A stretch of DNA of 64,000 nucleotides from Tepidanaerobacteraceae bacterium (GTDB taxonomy: Bacteria > Bacillota > Thermosediminibacteria > Thermosediminibacterales > Tepidanaerobacteraceae). Of the stretch, positions 37,262 through 45,996 are shown piece after piece. The stretch spans positions 62,001-126,000 of the forward strand of contig JANLFP010000010.1 of the NCBI GenBank assembly GCA_024655905.1, given 5' to 3'. The first letter of the stretch is position 1, and the number at the start of each line of letters is the position of its first letter. Both the position numbers and the translations under genes were made by a program. The notes below the pieces were generated by a model, which ran no database searches, was not told where the DNA came from, and saw nothing but the letters and a program-made list of their open reading frames with translations.

Positions 37262-37287
37262 AAAGGCCCGGGGATTATTACCGGGCC
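37262..37287 (-). terminator. Terminator of the hydrogenase operon
   Basis: Minus strand GGCCCGG, TAATAATC loop, CCCGGGCC and TTTTT; it overlaps the hndD stop codon. The group II intron fragment starts just after the T run. Confidence 0.88.
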
Positions 37288-39005
37288 AAAACCCTGGGTC
37301 TTGGGGTGTAATCGGTATGGAGAAGCTCATGAGCCCTGTGGCTCAAGGGCTTTATCAGAAAATCCTTATAAAGCTGCTGCACTGCCGGATTTTCATGGGA
37401 TTTCCTTAGCCTCATGGATTTATCGGCCTCATATATGGCCTGCATGCGCTTTTGTCTTACGTCATTATCCGTGGGAATAATCTGGCCTCCTCCTCCCAAA
37501 CAGCCGCCTGGACATGCCATAACTTCAATAAAATGGTATGTTTTTTGTCCGGCTTTCACGGCTTCGAGAAGCTTTCGCGCATTGGCCAGACTGTGAGCTA
37601 CGGCGGCTTTTAAAATTGTGCCGTTGACGGATACCTCCGCTTCTTTTATCCCGTCAAGCCCTCTTACCGGAGTAAAATTAATGTCTTCCAGCTCCTTACC
37701 GTTCACCAATTCATATACTGTTCTGATGGCTGCTTCCATAACCCCGCCGGTGGCTCCGAATATGACGCCGGCACCGGTGGATATGCCCAGCGGCAGATCG
37801 TATTCCTCGGGCTTCAATTTGGAAATATCTATTCCCATTTCCTTTATCATTCTGGAAAGTTCCCTGGTGGTTATAGCTATGTCTACATCGATGTATCCGC
37901 TAGATACCATTTCCCCTCTCTGAGCCTCGAATTTTTTAGCTGTACAGGGCATCACCGAAACAACAACGATATTTTCAGGGTTGAGCCTTGCTTTTGCGGC
38001 ATAGTATGTTTTTATCAGAGCGCCCATCATCTGCTGCGGAGATTTGCAGGTGGAAAGATTGTCGAGGAATTCCGGATAAAAATGTTCGCAGAATTTTATC
38101 CATCCGGGGCTGCAGGACGTTATGAGGGGCAATTTCCCTCCGGTTTCAAGGCGCTCGATGAGCTCACTGCCCTCTTCCATGATGGTGAGGTCTGCAGTGA
38201 AATCTGTGTCGAATACTCTGTCAAACCCCAGCCTCCGAAGGGCTGCCACCATCTGCCCTGTCACAATACTGCCGGGTTCCAGACCAAAGGCTTCTCCCAG
38301 GGCTACTCTTACCGCCGGAGCCGTCTGCACCACTACAAATTTATTTGGATCTGCCAGGGCTTCAAAAACCTTTTCCGTATCGTCCCTTTCGGTCAAAGCG
38401 CCGGTAGGGCATGCCATGACACACTGGCCGCACTGGCTGCATGGCATACGGTATAACCCCTCGCAGAAGGACGGATCAATGGAGGTCTTGAAGCCACGGT
38501 GATGTGGTTCCAGTATGCCAATGCCCTGGATGTCATTGCACACATTGACGCAACGCCGGCAAAGAATGCATTTATTCGGGTCCCGAACAATGGCGGGGGT
38601 GGTTTCATCCTTTTCGTAACGGGATCTTTCTCCCTCAAAGGGCATTTCGGTAATATTGAGTTGGCTTGAAAGCTTCTGTAGTTCACAATTTCCGTTTCTG
38701 AGGCATGTAGGACATTCCATTGGATGGTTCGACAGAATGAGTTCCAGGATGGTCTTCCGTGCTTTTCTTATAAAGGGAGTATTGGTTCTTACTTCCATGC
38801 CTTCCGCCGCCGGTGTGACGCAGGACGCCTGCAGGGTTTTGGCCCCCTTGACTTCCACCACGCAGAGCCGGCATACTCCCATGGCCTTCAAATCCTCTCG
38901 GTGACAGAGGGTTGGAATGTATACCCCGGCCTTTTTAGCTGCATCCAGGATGGTGGAGCCTTCTTCCACCTGGACATCTACACCGTTTATTTTAAGATTC
39001 AGCAT
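37278..39005 (-). CDS. hndD: [FeFe] hydrogenase catalytic subunit (HndD/HydA type)
   Basis: The 575-residue protein has an N-terminal [2Fe-2S] domain (CHREDLKAMGVCRLCVVEV), the His-ligated cluster motif (HPMECPTCLRNGNCELQ), two [4Fe-4S] motifs (CILCRRCVNVCND, CSQCGQCVMACPTG) and the full H-cluster: L1 ITSCSPGWIKFCEHF, L2 SVMPCTAKKFEAQRGE, L3 EVMACPGGCLGGGGQ. All four cluster cysteines are present, so it should be active in H2 formation or uptake. It is last in an hndABCD-type operon with a bifurcating-type flavin partner. ATG 39005 overlaps the preceding gene by 14 bases. The C-terminal small-subunit-like tail is included. Confidence 0.95.
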   Translation of the reverse strand: MLNLKINGVDVQVEEGSTILDAAKKAGVYIPTLCHREDLKAMGVCRLCVVEVKGAKTLQASCVTPAAEGMEVRTNTPFIRKARKTILELILSNHPMECPTCLRNGNCELQKLSSQLNITEMPFEGERSRYEKDETTPAIVRDPNKCILCRRCVNVCNDIQGIGILEPHHRGFKTSIDPSFCEGLYRMPCSQCGQCVMACPTGALTERDDTEKVFEALADPNKFVVVQTAPAVRVALGEAFGLEPGSIVTGQMVAALRRLGFDRVFDTDFTADLTIMEEGSELIERLETGGKLPLITSCSPGWIKFCEHFYPEFLDNLSTCKSPQQMMGALIKTYYAAKARLNPENIVVVSVMPCTAKKFEAQRGEMVSSGYIDVDIAITTRELSRMIKEMGIDISKLKPEEYDLPLGISTGAGVIFGATGGVMEAAIRTVYELVNGKELEDINFTPVRGLDGIKEAEVSVNGTILKAAVAHSLANARKLLEAVKAGQKTYHFIEVMACPGGCLGGGGQIIPTDNDVRQKRMQAIYEADKSMRLRKSHENPAVQQLYKDFLIKPLSHRAHELLHTDYTPRPRVLAR

Positions 39006-42000
39006 TTTTCACCCCTCCTTCCTGGGATTCTTTAACATCGCATCTCAAGCAGCGGCAAGCTTCCTTATATGCTATTTCTTCCGACATGCCCTGTTCCACT
39101 TCGGCAAAGCTCTTTTTTCTCTCATCCGGGGAAAGTTTTTGTACTGCGTACCTTTCCATCGAGTGTTCATAAATTTCGTATTCGGCTTTCCTAACATATG
39201 TCCTCTTTCTCTTGTACATCTCTCCTCCCAGGAATTTATCTATGGACAGTGCCGCTCTCCGCCCAAAATCTATGGCCTCTATGACTGTGGCAGGGCCAGT
39301 TACGCAGTCGCCTCCGGCAAAGACGCCGGTCAGGGATGTTTCCAGGGTATCTTTATTTACCTGAAGGGTCATATTCTTATTTACCTCAATCCCAATATTA
39401 TTTAAATCAGGCTGTTGTCCTATGGCTGCGATGACACTGTCGACCTTCACCGTAAATTCCGAACCCTCGATGGGGACCGGTTTTCTCCGGCCGCTTCTGT
39501 CGAATTCCCCGGGTCTCATCCTCTGTATCCTGATTTTATCCACCTTTCCATTGCCTCCCAGGATTTCCACCGGAGCGGTGTAGTGGTGGAACCTTATGCC
39601 TTCGGCCAGAGCGTCTTCAATTTCCTCTTTTTGAGCCGGCATCTCTTCCCTGCTCCTGCGGTAAAAGAGGTGAACCTCGCCGGCTCCTTTTCTCAGAGCA
39701 GTCCTCGCTGCATCTATCGCCGCATTACCGCCGCCTATGACTGCTACCCGTTCCCCGAGAGGTACTTCCAAACCTAGATTTACTTTCCTCAAAAACTCCA
39801 CGCCTGAAAATACTCCAGTCAGTTCCTCGCCGGGAATCCCCAGCTTCATATCCCTGTGGGCTCCTATAGCTATAAATATGGCTTCAAAGTTCTGTTTCTT
39901 TAAATCTTCCAGGCTAAAATCTCTTCCGAGGGCCTGATTCAATTTTATCTCGACCCCGACGGATTTTATATGCTCGATTTCCGCCGCCAGGACCTCCCTG
40001 GGAAGCCGGTATTCGGGAATCCCTACCGCCATCATGCCTCCGGCCACCGGCAGAGCTTCAAATACCGTAACGCTGTACCCTTCCCTCGCCAGGTAATAGG
40101 CCGCGGTAAGCCCCGAAGGACCTGCACCGATGATGGCCACTTTTTTACTTTTGAGCGCTCTCAAGGCGGGCTTTTGTGGATTTTTCATATCATAGTCGGC
40201 GGCAAATCTTTTCAATGCCCTTATGGCCACAGGATCATCTATCTGGGATCTGCGACATTTAGACTCGCAGGGATGGTTGCACACCCTGCCGCAAATGGCC
40301 GGGAAGGGGTTGTTTTCCCTTATTATTTCCACCGCTCTGGAATAATCCTTTTGCCTTATGGCGCTTATATAAAGCGGCACTTCCACTCCGGCAGGGCAGG
40401 CGTTCTGGCATGGCGAATCAAAAAGGCTTGCACATACCGAAGCAGGACATTTTTTATATTTTATGTGTGCTTCATACTCTTCTCTAAAATACCTGATGGT
40501 GGAGAGTACCGGGTTCGGAGCTGTTTGCCCCAGGCCGCACAGTGCGGTTTCCTTTATGATATTGCCGGTATCTATGAGCCTCTCAATATCCCCTTCGCGG
40601 CCTTCACCCCTGGTGATGCGTTCCAGAATCTCCAGCATCCTCTTGGTGCCCAGGCGGCATGGGGCACACTTGCCGCAGGATTCGTCCTGCACAAACTGTA
40701 GGAAGAATTTTGCAAAGTCCACCATACATGTATCTTCATCCACTACGATAAGGCCGCCGGAACCCATGATGGTGCCCAGTTCCTTCAATGTCTCATAATC
40801 CACAGGAGTATTCAAATATTCCCTGGGTATGCATCCCCCGGAAGGCCCACCGGTCTGGGCAGCCTTGAATTTTTTACCGCCGGGTATTCCTCCTCCGATA
40901 TCGTATATTATATCCCCCAGACTCGTGCCCATGGGTACCTCCACAAGGCCTGTGTTGTTGATTTTTCCGGCCAGGGCGAACACCTTGGTCCCGGTATTGT
41001 TGGAAGTACCGTATGAAGCAAACCATTCGGCTCCATTCAAGATGATCGGGCAGATATTGGCATAGGTCTCCACATTGTTTATAAGAGTGGGTTTCCCGAG
41101 ATACCCTTCGTTGGCCGGAAATGGTGGTTTTGGCCTGGGCTCCCCACGCTTCCCCTCCACCGATGCTATAAGGGCCGTCTCTTCACCGCATACGAAGGCT
41201 CCCGCCCCCACCTTTATATCAAGATCGAAGTCAAAACTGATCCCCAGGATATTCTTGCCCAGCAGGCCCCACTCTCTGGCCTGGGAAATGGCATGGCTCA
41301 AACGTTCCACCGCCAGGGGGTATTCTGCCCGGACATAAACATACCCCTGATTTGCACCTACGGCAAAACCTGCTATGGCCATGGCTTCTATCACGGAATG
41401 GGGATCTCCTTCCAGGACACTTCTGTCCATGAATGCGCCGGGATCTCCTTCATCGGCATTGCACAGTACATATTTGGGATAGCCTTTAGCCCTGGCGGTA
41501 AAGCTCCACTTCAATCCCGTGGAAAACCCTGCGCCGCCGCGACCCCGAAGGCCTGACTTTTTAATGACATCTATCACTTCTTCGGGTTTCATTTCACTCA
41601 GTACTTTGGTCAATGCCTTATACCCGTCAACAGCTATATATTCCTCTATACTCATGGGGTCTATAAGGCCTGTGTTTCTCAGGGCAATTTTTACCTGTTT
41701 TGCGAAAAAAGGGTTTTCTCTTAACGTGGGGGCAAGCCGACCGTCGTGTTCCCGGGCCACCAGTTCCTCCACTACCTCCCCCATATAGAGATGTTTTTCG
41801 ACTATCTTTGCGGCGCCTTCCGGCGTAACTTTGGTATAGAGCACGCCCTCCGGATACACTAGCACCATGGGGCCCAGATGACAGGGGCCCATGCACCCCG
41901 TTACCACTACTTTGATTTCCTGCGAAAGGCCCATCCGATTAATACCTGAAAGCATTGCTTCCTTTACTTTGAGGCATCCGGATGACATACATCCCCCGCC

Positions 42001-42036
42001 GCCGCATACCAGCACATGGCTTCTGTAAAAATGCAT
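38992..42036 (-). CDS. hndC: HndC/HydB-like NAD(P)H flavoprotein fused to a GltD-like domain
   Basis: About 1014 residues from ATG 42036 (GGGGGAG site). Residues 1-90 are a thioredoxin-like [2Fe-2S] domain (CGGGGCMSSGCLKV), residues 100-540 the NuoF core with GLRGRGGAGFSTGLKW and a [4Fe-4S] SCGKCAPCRLGTKRM. In place of the usual C-terminal two-cluster ferredoxin comes a GltD/NfnB-like half: CQNACPAGVEVP, CGRVCNHPCESKCRR, FAD loop KKVAIIGAGPSGLTAAYYLA, NAD(P) loop RVAVIGGGNAAIDAARTAL and GVFAGGDCVTGPATVIEAI. The fusion gives two flavin/nicotinamide sites in one subunit, suggesting a hydrogenase linked to both NADH and NADPH or ferredoxin. Operon partners are HndA, HndB and HndD. Confidence 0.9.
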   Translation of the reverse strand: MHFYRSHVLVCGGGGCMSSGCLKVKEAMLSGINRMGLSQEIKVVVTGCMGPCHLGPMVLVYPEGVLYTKVTPEGAAKIVEKHLYMGEVVEELVAREHDGRLAPTLRENPFFAKQVKIALRNTGLIDPMSIEEYIAVDGYKALTKVLSEMKPEEVIDVIKKSGLRGRGGAGFSTGLKWSFTARAKGYPKYVLCNADEGDPGAFMDRSVLEGDPHSVIEAMAIAGFAVGANQGYVYVRAEYPLAVERLSHAISQAREWGLLGKNILGISFDFDLDIKVGAGAFVCGEETALIASVEGKRGEPRPKPPFPANEGYLGKPTLINNVETYANICPIILNGAEWFASYGTSNNTGTKVFALAGKINNTGLVEVPMGTSLGDIIYDIGGGIPGGKKFKAAQTGGPSGGCIPREYLNTPVDYETLKELGTIMGSGGLIVVDEDTCMVDFAKFFLQFVQDESCGKCAPCRLGTKRMLEILERITRGEGREGDIERLIDTGNIIKETALCGLGQTAPNPVLSTIRYFREEYEAHIKYKKCPASVCASLFDSPCQNACPAGVEVPLYISAIRQKDYSRAVEIIRENNPFPAICGRVCNHPCESKCRRSQIDDPVAIRALKRFAADYDMKNPQKPALRALKSKKVAIIGAGPSGLTAAYYLAREGYSVTVFEALPVAGGMMAVGIPEYRLPREVLAAEIEHIKSVGVEIKLNQALGRDFSLEDLKKQNFEAIFIAIGAHRDMKLGIPGEELTGVFSGVEFLRKVNLGLEVPLGERVAVIGGGNAAIDAARTALRKGAGEVHLFYRRSREEMPAQKEEIEDALAEGIRFHHYTAPVEILGGNGKVDKIRIQRMRPGEFDRSGRRKPVPIEGSEFTVKVDSVIAAIGQQPDLNNIGIEVNKNMTLQVNKDTLETSLTGVFAGGDCVTGPATVIEAIDFGRRAALSIDKFLGGEMYKRKRTYVRKAEYEIYEHSMERYAVQKLSPDERKKSFAEVEQGMSEEIAYKEACRCLRCDVKESQEGGVKNAES

Positions 42037-42047
42037 TTCTCTCCCCC

Positions 42048-42359
42048 CTATACGTTTGGAATTACCCATTCATTGATTATGGTGCGGTTTTGAATGTGGT
42101 GAAAAACGATGCCCCTTGCCATTTCCGGTGTCACATGGTGATAAGTTACATTCGGAAGTCCTTCCACATGAACATCCACCAGGGGTTCCATAGAACAGAG
42201 GCCTATACAACCGGTGGTTTTTATCCTGACATTATTCAAATTTTTATCCTCTATCTCCTTTTGAAAGGCCGTAAGTACATCTTTCGCTCCCACCGCAATG
42301 CTGCATATGCCGTATCGAAGCACTACCTGTGCATTTGGAGATTCTCTCGGACCTTCCAT
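42048..42359 (-). CDS. hndB: HndB-like [2Fe-2S] ferredoxin
   Basis: The 103-residue protein has a thioredoxin-like [2Fe-2S] fold: VVLRYGICSIAVGAKDVL for the first cysteine region and TTGCIGLCSMEPLVDV for the pair near the C-terminal half, a reduced Cys set as in HndB. It sits between HndA- and HndC-like genes, as in NADP-reducing hydrogenase operons. It is thought to relay electrons between flavin and hydrogenase subunits. Confidence 0.83.
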   Translation of the reverse strand: MEGPRESPNAQVVLRYGICSIAVGAKDVLTAFQKEIEDKNLNNVRIKTTGCIGLCSMEPLVDVHVEGLPNVTYHHVTPEMARGIVFHHIQNRTIINEWVIPNV

Positions 42360-42444: not shown

Positions 42445-43032
42445 CTAAATCGGTGCAAGTCTCCTGCTGGGTTCGGCTGCAAATTTTTCTTTTGTTCTGG
42501 CCTCTTCCCGCTGCTGTCTCATCACCTCGCTGTAATCCCTGAACGGCGGTTCATAGCGGGAAATTATTTCTGTTATATCTTCGGGTTTGAGCCTTGCGTA
42601 AACGTCATCATTTATCATCATGACAGGACCCAAACCGCAGGCTCCCAGGCATCTAATCACATCCAGGGAAAACAGGCCGTCATCGGTGGTATCGCCGGGT
42701 TGTATTTTGAGATACTGGGAAAGTTTTTCGATGATTTTTTCCGCTCCTCTGACATAGCAGGCGGTACCCTTACAGCAGCTTATCTGGTACTTCCCCTTGG
42801 GTTTTAACGAGAAAAAGGCATAAAAGGTAACGATACTGTAAATCTCGCTCAGGGTCACGTTCAGAAGTTCTGACAACCGGACCTGAACCTTTCTAGGTAT
42901 GAATCCAAAGTGTTCCTGGACATCCCTCAGAATCTGAATAAGCTCACCCTTCTTTTTACCGTGTTTTTCTACCTGTTGTTCGACCCAAATGAGGTCTTCG
43001 TCACTGACATCAAAGATATTTTTATCCGGCAT
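42445..43032 (-). CDS. hndA: HndA/NuoE-like [2Fe-2S] subunit
   Basis: About 195 residues from ATG 43032 (AGGAGGGAGTAAA upstream). The NuoE domain is complete: QILRDVQEHFGFIPRKVQVR, SCCKGTACYVRGAEK and RCLGACGLGPVMMINDD carry the four cluster cysteines. A 35-residue C-terminal tail (MRQQREEARTKEKFAAEPSR) is extra and highly charged. It is the first gene of the hydrogenase operon, about 90 bases downstream of the presumed sigma-54 start point. Confidence 0.9.
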   Translation of the reverse strand: MPDKNIFDVSDEDLIWVEQQVEKHGKKKGELIQILRDVQEHFGFIPRKVQVRLSELLNVTLSEIYSIVTFYAFFSLKPKGKYQISCCKGTACYVRGAEKIIEKLSQYLKIQPGDTTDDGLFSLDVIRCLGACGLGPVMMINDDVYARLKPEDITEIISRYEPPFRDYSEVMRQQREEARTKEKFAAEPSRRLAPI

Positions 43033-43135
43033 TTTACTCCCTCCTGTTATAGGTTTCGATGAACACACCCTTCAAACTTTACCGAGTATAGCGTTTTCTT
43101 TGTTCAATCATGGCGTTTCATCATCCTTAAGTTAT

Positions 43136-43151
43136 TGCAAACCTCATGCCA
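43136..43151 (-). promoter_or_regulatory. Sigma-54 promoter of the hydrogenase operon
   Basis: Minus strand TGGCAT-GAGGT-TTGCA fits the -24/-12 consensus TGGCAC-N5-TTGCW with one mismatch and exact spacing. It is about 105 bases before the hndA start. The adjacent gene encodes a sigma-54-dependent activator. Confidence 0.8.
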
Positions 43152-43167
43152 CAAGACAATCCGGCAA

Positions 43168-43208
43168 AATAAAGAGCATTGAGAAATCATCAAAATTTCT
43201 CAATGCTC
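43168..43208 (-). terminator. Terminator of the sigma-54 regulator gene
   Basis: GAGCATTGAGAAAT and ATTTCTCAATGCTC form a perfect 14-bp stem around a 7-base loop, followed on the minus strand by TTTATTTTG. It ends the regulator transcript just upstream of the sigma-54 promoter. Confidence 0.78.
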
Positions 43209-43219
43209 CTGTGCATTAA
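43200..43219. promoter_or_regulatory. Candidate upstream activator site 1
   Basis: TCAATGC-N6-GCATTAA, an imperfect 7-6-7 inverted repeat centred about 60 bases upstream of the sigma-54 promoter -24 element. It is nearly the same as the repeat at 43304-43323. Confidence 0.55.
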
Positions 43220-43303
43220 GGATATTTTATTTTCATCTATTAACTCATTTTTTTAGACCCTCCCCACATCTTCAATTAGCTGCTAGAAGTCTTAAACCTT
43301 TCC

Positions 43304-43323
43304 TTAATGCTCTCCTGCATTAA
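43304..43323. promoter_or_regulatory. Candidate upstream activator site 2
   Basis: TTAATGC-N6-GCATTAA, a perfect 7-6-7 inverted repeat 104 bases (about ten helical turns) from site 1 and roughly 155 bases upstream of the promoter, a usual enhancer distance for Fis-type HTH activators. Confidence 0.6.
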
Positions 43324-43338
43324 AAATGCGATAAAACA

Positions 43339-45996
43339 TTAAATTTGTTTTTCTTTGAATCGATGGAGTTTCCTCACAATGGTGGACTGGTTTACTCCCA
43401 AAAGTTCCGCCATTTCATAGGTGGTATTGCACTGTTTTACCGCCAGTTCCAGCAATTGCTGTTCCACCAATTCCTGAGCTTTCTTTAGAGGCATAATTCC
43501 CTCCACCATTATTTTTTGTAAGGGTGGCTTTTTACCCCTGATAAATTCAGGAAGTTCCTGAATGGTTATACAATTTCTTTCAGAGGTTACCACAAGCCTT
43601 TCTATAAGGTTTTCCAGTTCCCTGACATTTCCCGGCCAGGAATAGTTAACGAGGGCTGTCATGGCATCATCAGTTATGGATTTTGTTATCCCGTAATTTT
43701 TATTAAAATAGGCCATAAAATAATCTATCAATGGTTCTATATCTTCTTTCCGATCTCTCAAGGGCGGCACCACCAGAGGTACCACATTTAAGCGGTAATA
43801 TAAATCTTCTCTAAAAGTGCCCTCTTCCACCATTTTTCTCAGGTCTTTATTGGTGACTGCAATGACCCTTATATCCACTTCAATGGGTTTTGTGCCGCCG
43901 ATACGGGTAAGTTCTTTTTCCTGCAGTACCTGCAGGAGTTTAACCTGCAGGTTAAGGGGAAGGTCGCCTATTTCATCCAGAAGAAGGGTTCCTTTGTGGG
44001 CCATTTCTATCAGGCCGGGTTTACCTTCCCGTCGGGCTCCGGTGAAAGCACCGGTCTCATAACCGAAGAGTTCTGACTCCAGCAAACTTTCGGGTATGGA
44101 ACCGCAGTTGACCTTTATGAAGGGACCTTTTTTTCTGGGACTGTTTTCATGGATAAACCGTGCAATAAGACCTTTGCCTACACCGGATTCACCCAATATT
44201 AAAACCGTAGAGTTAACCGCGGCAACCCGCAAAGCAATTCGCAGCAGTTCCTCTATCACGGGGCTAATGGATACTATTCTTGGTAATGGGCCTTGATTTG
44301 GTTCTAAAGAACTCTGTTCCATATATGTTTTTAGTTTCTCAAAATCCAGCGCCTCTCTGCTTAAATGGTTCAGTTCCGCCATATCCCGGGCGTTTATGAC
44401 CACCCGGACTACCCTGCCTTCCTCATCAAAAATGGGATTGCCTGTAGCCAGCACCTTTTTGCCGGTTCCGGTTTCCTGAATAAGTGTCAGTCTACGTTTT
44501 TCTTTTAGTACCAATTTTGTCAAAGATGGATATATGATGCGGCTTTTTTCAAGGTCATCGGCTTTTAATCCTATGATACTCTCGGGAGATTTTCCCAAAA
44601 ATCTGGCAAAGGCCCTGTTTACGCGCAATGTTTTTCCATCACCGTCGGCTACAAATATGCCGTCATAAGACGAATCTATAATGGCATTCATTTCACGGTT
44701 AAATTCTTCAGTGCGTTTTTTTTCTTTTATCTCCTTTGTCAGCAAAAATGGAAGGCACATGTCAATTTCGGCAATACCGTTATATACCGCCACAGCCTTT
44801 TCCCGACAGGAACTGTAACCACATGCCCCGCAATTTAATTCATCCTGTAGAGAATATTTGTTTGTATAATTCAAGATTTTTCTGATATCTTCTTCCGATG
44901 CAGATTTCAAAGAAACAGCCTTATTTGAATAACGCCGGGTGAGGTCCAATTCCTGCGCATTTTTTATATGCTTCAGATATTCAGAAACCGTATCCCGGTC
45001 TTTATCATTTTTATCTCCTTGCAGTAGAAATTCCTCAACCTTCTCCCTGTTGGCAAAGTAATTGGTATCCTTGAAGTATGGTCCTTCAACACATCCGCCG
45101 CACATGAGAATATCCACAAAATATGGGTTATATTCTCCACTATCTATACTTTCAAGACACGGCAATACATCTTCTTTCTTGTCCACAATCACGGTCTTGC
45201 GGGAAAATTTGAAGGGGTCTTTTAAGGAAAGAAACAAGCCGCCACTTACCGGGAAACCGCGGAAAGCTTTCTGTGGCAATGGACCGTCAAAGCATGAAGG
45301 CTCCAAACGGGTTATGTCTATATTCTTTGTTAAAATCATTTCTTCCAGTTCTTTAAAAGTAAGTACCGCATCCACTCCCTCCACCTGTTTCATCTCATCT
45401 TTTTTTGCTACACATGGACCAATGAACACTACCAATGCTTCTGGATATTCCAGCTTTATCAAACGGCCCGTGGCTATCATGGGAGAGACTACGGGTGAAA
45501 GGTGGGGGATAAGACCGGGAAAATGTTTTTCAACGATATTGACTACCGCGGGGCAGGCGCTGGAAATTAGCGGAGGCTTGAAGCTGCCGTTCAATAGTTC
45601 CTCATATTTTTTTCCGATTAATTCGGCCCCTACCGCCACTTCCCATACTTCATCAAATCCCAAGGTTTTTAAAGCGGCAATGATTTTGCCTGCCATGCCT
45701 TCTGTGAAAGCCGCAGGAAAGCTGGGAGCAAGAATCGCTATTTTATATTCTTTTTGATGTAAAATATCCAGTGTTTTTTCTATGCCGCTTTCTATAGTCT
45801 TTGCGTTTTGGGAGCAGACTTTTACACAATTGCCGCAGGCTATGCATCTTTCACTCAAAACCTCGGCCTGGCCATTTTTCACTCTTACCGCTTTGACCGG
45901 ACAGTGGCGAACACAGGAATAACATTGCTTGCATTTGTTTTTTTCCGTCCACACGATACCCGGCAAGGTCTTTGCCCCCTTTTTATTCAGGGTCAT
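43339..45996 (-). CDS. Sigma-54 activator with ferredoxin, H-cluster-like, Fe-S and PAS sensor domains
   Basis: The 885-residue protein has, in order: a two-cluster ferredoxin (residues 20-65; CKQCYSCVRHCP, CIACGNCVKVCS); a hydrogenase H-cluster-like domain (about 85-325) with Cys147 in SSACPAVVN, Cys195 in GPCVAKKDE and Cys299/Cys302 in MCGGCVEGP, which correspond to the four cluster ligands of [FeFe] hydrogenase; a 4Fe-4S domain (389-415, NCGACGYSSC); a PAS domain (440-545); the AAA+ domain (Walker A GESGVGKG, GAFTGA at 649-654); and a Fis-type HTH ending the protein. L1 and L3 deviate from catalytic enzymes. It most likely senses H2 or redox state and activates the hydrogenase operon. Confidence 0.92.
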   Translation of the reverse strand: MTLNKKGAKTLPGIVWTEKNKCKQCYSCVRHCPVKAVRVKNGQAEVLSERCIACGNCVKVCSQNAKTIESGIEKTLDILHQKEYKIAILAPSFPAAFTEGMAGKIIAALKTLGFDEVWEVAVGAELIGKKYEELLNGSFKPPLISSACPAVVNIVEKHFPGLIPHLSPVVSPMIATGRLIKLEYPEALVVFIGPCVAKKDEMKQVEGVDAVLTFKELEEMILTKNIDITRLEPSCFDGPLPQKAFRGFPVSGGLFLSLKDPFKFSRKTVIVDKKEDVLPCLESIDSGEYNPYFVDILMCGGCVEGPYFKDTNYFANREKVEEFLLQGDKNDKDRDTVSEYLKHIKNAQELDLTRRYSNKAVSLKSASEEDIRKILNYTNKYSLQDELNCGACGYSSCREKAVAVYNGIAEIDMCLPFLLTKEIKEKKRTEEFNREMNAIIDSSYDGIFVADGDGKTLRVNRAFARFLGKSPESIIGLKADDLEKSRIIYPSLTKLVLKEKRRLTLIQETGTGKKVLATGNPIFDEEGRVVRVVINARDMAELNHLSREALDFEKLKTYMEQSSLEPNQGPLPRIVSISPVIEELLRIALRVAAVNSTVLILGESGVGKGLIARFIHENSPRKKGPFIKVNCGSIPESLLESELFGYETGAFTGARREGKPGLIEMAHKGTLLLDEIGDLPLNLQVKLLQVLQEKELTRIGGTKPIEVDIRVIAVTNKDLRKMVEEGTFREDLYYRLNVVPLVVPPLRDRKEDIEPLIDYFMAYFNKNYGITKSITDDAMTALVNYSWPGNVRELENLIERLVVTSERNCITIQELPEFIRGKKPPLQKIMVEGIMPLKKAQELVEQQLLELAVKQCNTTYEMAELLGVNQSTIVRKLHRFKEKQI

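Follow-up and report, generated by a model that had tools for sequence, protein, structure and literature searches.

A hydrogenase-like PAS sigma-54 activator with a predicted three-site enhancer in front of the adjacent hndABCD hydrogenase operon

Many anaerobes encode hydrogenase-like sensory proteins, whose signal and targets are described as unsettled (PMC10084766, PMC8924675). In Clostridiales, sigma-54/EBP regulons were reconstructed by Nie et al. 2019 (PMC6615313), with UAS located 100-250 bp from a TGGCAT-N5-TTGCT promoter and with the Fe_hyd_lg_C activator architecture included. The locus analysed here resembles those regulons in having a one-component PAS activator beside its putative target operon, and several UAS. 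It differs in that Table 1 of that study, which covers 39 regulons, contains no hydrogenase target, although the motif may figure elsewhere in the same study, for another activator. HydS of group C (PMC10055695, PMC8924675) likewise joins a hydrogenase-like domain to PAS and is encoded beside a hydrogenase; unlike HydS, the present activator has a sigma-54 AAA+ domain and an HTH domain directly attached, and its L3 motif reads C-x2-C rather than C-x3-C. The hnd operon of Solidesulfovibrio, which encodes an electron-bifurcating hydrogenase and shares the subunit order hndABCD, is strongly regulated at transcription, with Rex or HydS proposed as the regulator (PMC10084766), whereas here the predicted regulator is a sigma-54 activator, and hndC carries an extra GltD-like domain. 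The kind of system is known; the particular regulon, the link between motif and recognition helix, and the overlaps of sites with a stop codon and a terminator were not found described in the open-access literature searched.

The window (the whole 64-kb stretch of DNA analysed) carries the activator gene and the hydrogenase operon on the minus strand, with the following features:

43339..45996, minus strand: activator gene, 885 aa, assigned from Pfam, an alignment of 13 orthologues, and solved-structure and fold matches
43324..43341, minus strand: UAS1, TAATGTTTTATCGCATTT, whose first three bases are the activator stop codon (43341..43339)
43304..43323, minus strand: UAS2, TTAATGCAGGAGAGCATTAA, a perfect repeat TTAATGC-N6-GCATTAA in tandem with UAS1
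43200..43219, minus strand: UAS3, TTAATGCACAGGAGCATTGA, TCAATGC-N6-GCATTAA, whose promoter-side half-site is the base of the terminator stem
43173..43209, minus strand: intrinsic terminator hairpin 3' of the activator gene, followed by TTATTTT
43136..43151, minus strand: predicted sigma-54 promoter, TGGCATGAGGTTTGCA, with GG at 43150-43149 and GC at 43138-43137 (GG-N10-GC)
42445..43032, minus strand: hndA, thioredoxin-like [2Fe-2S] subunit, ATG at 43032, ribosome-binding site AGGAGGG
42048..42359, minus strand: hndB, small subunit, syntenic and homologous
38992..42069, minus strand: hndC, NuoF-like with a fused C-terminal pyridine-nucleotide oxidoreductase (GltD-like) domain, from Pfam
37278..39005, minus strand: hndD, catalytic [FeFe]-hydrogenase subunit, from Pfam

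Read along the minus strand, the order is UAS1, UAS2, UAS3, the terminator (which shares the right arm of UAS3), the -24/-12 element and the hndA ATG. In general, sigma-54 RNA polymerase sits at -24/-12 as a closed complex awaiting activation. The sequence-only reading had placed TGGCAT-N5-TTGCA upstream of hndA on the correct strand, and this holds: the element at 43151..43136 is the sole exact match to TGGCAY-N5-TTGCW in the window, where one-mismatch matches to the sigma-54 consensus occur at chance level. Its end lies 103 bases from the hndA ATG, and the hndA transcript is predicted to start near 43125. The genome encodes rpoN (PF04552 match, E 2.5e-62).

The same reading described two enhancer repeats farther upstream, TCAATGC-N6-GCATTAA and TTAATGC-N6-GCATTAA. 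Both are present, and they are the best matches to the 20-mer in the 3.2-Mb genome: TTAATGC-N6-GCATTAA has one exact and one single-mismatch match, UAS2 and UAS3, and all further matches have two mismatches and are as frequent as those of the reversed-motif control. The pair is real, but the count has to be raised, because a third repeat, UAS1, adjoins the distal one and had been overlooked. It is degenerate, with 2 mismatches in the 12-base core, and reads TAA-TGTTTTATCGCATTT from the end of the activator gene, the repeat starting on the stop codon itself. In the window, UAS1 and UAS2 are 19 bp apart, centre to centre, the centres of UAS2 and UAS3 are separated by 104 bases, and 59 bp lie between UAS3 and the -24 element.

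Conservation was assessed with activator orthologues from eight genomes of the same class and from others elsewhere in the phylum. The order of the window genome includes Thermosediminibacter, since match coordinates and E-value are identical for the T. litoriperuensis genome behind L162 and for G018, a genome of that order. In 23 of the 26 loci tested, hndA lies downstream of an activator orthologue (38-100% identical), and these 23 activator-hndA gaps contain 62 TAATGC-N6-GCATTA sites with up to 2 mismatches. All 26 loci together have 65 sites against about 1.5 expected from dinucleotide shuffles, with 5 as the highest shuffle total; as the loci are related, close relatives included, these shuffle figures, like the Fisher value given below, overstate independence. 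Relatives that share the gene order therefore retain the repeats, as the sequence-only reading required, with at least two sites in 22 of the 23 gaps, and a sigma-54 -24/-12 element scoring at least 10/13 is found in all 23, compared with 6% of shuffles. Among the 65 sites, A3, T4, A15 and T16 never vary, G5, G13 and C14 hardly ever do, and the inner A7/T12 widens the dyad to TAATGCA-N4-TGCATTA. In 13 loci, UAS1 starts exactly on the activator stop codon (one such site has 3 mismatches).

The spacing of the tandem pair is 20.2 +/- 0.9 bp across loci (range 18-22 bp), and the distance between UAS and promoter varies widely among relatives. The 104-base spacing emphasized in the sequence-only reading is correct for the window, but its interpretation as ten turns of the helix does not extend to relatives: the distance is 91 bp in a relative with 98% identity, other loci span 68-123 bp, in-phase spacings are not favoured, and helical phasing was rejected. 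The conserved geometry is the tandem pair of about 20 bp, or about two helical turns.

Paralogous and rearranged loci provide natural controls. Within the class, each of the 8 regulated-type hndA genes has the sites, whereas no site pair occurs within 600 bp upstream of 20 hndA paralogues of the other type, one of which has a single site with 2 mismatches. The second, paralogous hnd operon of the window genome (L217, G000:C22:214500-226000) has no sites. Its HndD is 65% identical, and about 1.3 kb upstream of that operon lies a gene for a hydrogenase-like domain protein that is 29% identical to the N-terminal part of the activator. No sites occur in G007 or at locus L099, where hnd does not follow the activator. 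G420 has two hydrogenase operons; the first lies between the activator and the second, and the second has three sites and a sigma-54 element of its own. In G004, hndA is preceded by sites, UAS3 hairpin and promoter although a different gene adjoins it; the activator was not detected in this 88% complete assembly. In G022, a transposase-like gene separates the activator from hndA, which keeps the sites. The inserted open reading frame (L068, 8330-10075) encodes 581 aa and lies past the activator gene but before the enhancer sites; the end of the activator gene may be altered, because the last residues it encodes, beyond NQSTVV, are unlike those of any orthologue. In G434 (L202), an activator orthologue is followed by the sites and a sigma-54 promoter and then, in place of hnd, by a pair of related genes for membrane proteins, possibly reflecting a change of regulatory target.

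The terminator hairpin (43209..43173) has a folding energy of -23.2 kcal/mol (z -6.1). The proximal repeat does overlap its stem, as the sequence-only reading had observed, and the overlap recurs within this class: a UAS3 half-site lies inside the terminator stem in the window and in G009, G005, G014, G024 and G025, lineages whose stems differ in sequence and keep the pairing. The overlap is also seen in G004; in G432 the UAS3 palindrome is inside the hairpin, and in G434 a terminator-like hairpin arises from pairing between two sites. In the remaining lineages, the terminator is separate from the UAS sites. Because the stem differs in sequence from one lineage to another yet the overlap is kept, even where the activator is not the upstream gene, a dual role can be proposed for UAS3, as an enhancer and a regulated terminator at which activator binding, or the UAS RNA hairpin, would control read-through into hndABCD; we consider this improbable.

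The overlap in several lineages also bears on another proposal, that the palindromes act in RNA, as hairpins or as an attenuator within the activator mRNA's 3' untranslated region, and not as protein sites. UAS3 and the terminator would then be mutually exclusive hairpins sharing one arm, and the repeats do fold (-11.7 kcal/mol for UAS1 and UAS2 jointly and -9.5 for UAS3 alone). However, the UAS3 hairpin that would compete with the terminator is much the less stable of the two, and primary sequence is conserved beyond what pairing demands, with 52 one-sided deviations against 4 two-sided ones. The positions of the sites in G420 and G004, before a second hydrogenase operon and before an hndA with no activator gene upstream, also argue against a function in RNA, as does the correspondence between the sites and the HTH type of unrelated activators described below. 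We regard an RNA role of this kind as very unlikely.

The activator comprises two [4Fe-4S] ferredoxin domains, Fe_hyd_lg_C, FeS and PAS domains, a sigma-54 AAA+ domain with the GAFTGA loop and a C-terminal TyrR/Fis-like HTH (GVNQSTIVRKL); the AAA+ domain with this loop and the C-terminal HTH are hallmarks of bEBPs. In an AlphaFold model (pLDDT 72.6, pTM 0.50) followed by a fold search, only the AAA+ and hydrogenase-like folds were recovered. The likeness to TyrR/Fis-type operators and HTH domains consists of a dyad with a 6-bp spacer and a Pfam HTH_50 match that scores 25.1 bits, below the curated cut-off of 27. The half-site of TyrR boxes is TGTAAA, as compared with TAATGC here. In the recognition helix, N-Q-S-T and the next V are invariant among activator orthologues down to 38% identity.

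For comparison, other sigma-54 activators were collected by a contig scan anchored on the AAA+ domain. The core occurs no more than 250 bp from the stop codon in 14 of 29 EBPs with an [N/D]QS[T/S] helix and in 1 of 80 others (Fisher 6e-9, for loci that are not independent), whereas reversed and scrambled control motifs gave 0-1 occurrences near EBP stop codons. Several sites of the other [N/D]QS[T/S] activators likewise start on the stop codon. Paralogous activators lacking the same upstream sensor (L019-L024, L030, L157 and L195) have the core at or just past their own stop codon, which suggests that an enhancer sited where the activator gene ends is a general trait of the family.

Activators with similar helices carry the same core beside their genes, so that cross-recognition is plausible and this site could also be a target of other [N/D]QST activators. 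The repeats might then be operators of another regulator, such an [N/D]QST activator or a redox regulator such as Rex, with the neighbouring activator targeting DNA elsewhere; for the Solidesulfovibrio hnd operon, Rex is a proposed regulator (PMC10084766). The sites, however, co-occur with this activator and operon orthologue by orthologue. Within the own genome, the core has one more exact match (C22:95812-95829), which falls in a coding sequence, and no further intergenic pair was found; these observations count against another regulator. A larger regulon in this genome was rejected as well, on the exact matches, the remaining hits having one mismatch. The TAATGC dyad is also unlike the Rex operator as generally described. 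Overall, assignment of the repeats to a different regulator appears highly improbable. Autoregulation of the activator was rejected too, there being no site within 3 mismatches upstream of the activator gene in the window. In G290, one site lies about 40 bp before the activator gene.

Comparative sequence analysis establishes the elements, their conservation, and their link to the hydrogenase operon and to the HTH class. That these elements match control by the neighbouring activator was the proposal of the sequence-only reading, and conservation, the controls and the helix link bear it out; control of hndA by this activator is predicted, and we infer it strongly. The hydrogenase-like PAS sigma-54 activator very probably turns on hndABCD through the three-site enhancer at the sigma-54 promoter, with three points counting against this reading: the gap of 59 bp between UAS3 and the -24 element, short for looping, the degeneracy of UAS1, and the variable distance between UAS and promoter in relatives. 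Under this model, the intergenic region 43341-43033 would be the regulatory region of the hndABCD operon, where sigma-54 polymerase would bind at 43151-43136 and stay closed. The [N/D]QST-type HTH of the activator would bind the three repeats TAATGCA-N4-TGCATTA, that is, the tandem pair at the end of the activator gene and the third repeat within the activator's own terminator. A signal received by the N-terminal Fe-S/hydrogenase-like/PAS region, presumably H2, the redox state of ferredoxin or both, would lead the AAA+ domain to assemble on the sites, with looping of the DNA; ATP hydrolysis would then open the promoter and the bifurcating-type hydrogenase would be made.

The nature of the signal can be approached through the sensor region. 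The four cysteines of L1, L2 and L3 are invariant in the 13 activator orthologues. Like group C hydrogenases (PMC10055695), the activator has a PAS domain and a replaced proton-shuttle cysteine, the position being Ala, Pro or Thr where checked. Its motifs nevertheless depart from those of a canonical H-cluster, with GPC for MPC in L2 and C-x2-C for C-x3-C in L3, and on these motifs we do not class it as a sensory group C [FeFe]-hydrogenase. The L3 reading makes a complete H-cluster doubtful, and redox sensing by Fe-S clusters therefore appears as likely as H2 sensing. In the catalytic subunit HndD, both in the window (37278-39005) and in all homologues compared, L1 reads TSCSPGW, with serine replacing the second cysteine of TSCCP, the sequence of the solved hydrogenases compared.

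This analysis gives one hydrogenase-like sensor a defined, predicted DNA target, preserved across much of a phylum, with three sites and a promoter ahead of one neighbouring operon. Because the same layout recurs in distant anaerobes, this is a specific and testable target for a suspected H2/redox sensor, and it allows direct tests of a response to H2, to the redox state of ferredoxin or to another signal. The link between the motif and the recognition-helix class would, in addition, permit target prediction for many uncharacterised clostridial sigma-54 activators.
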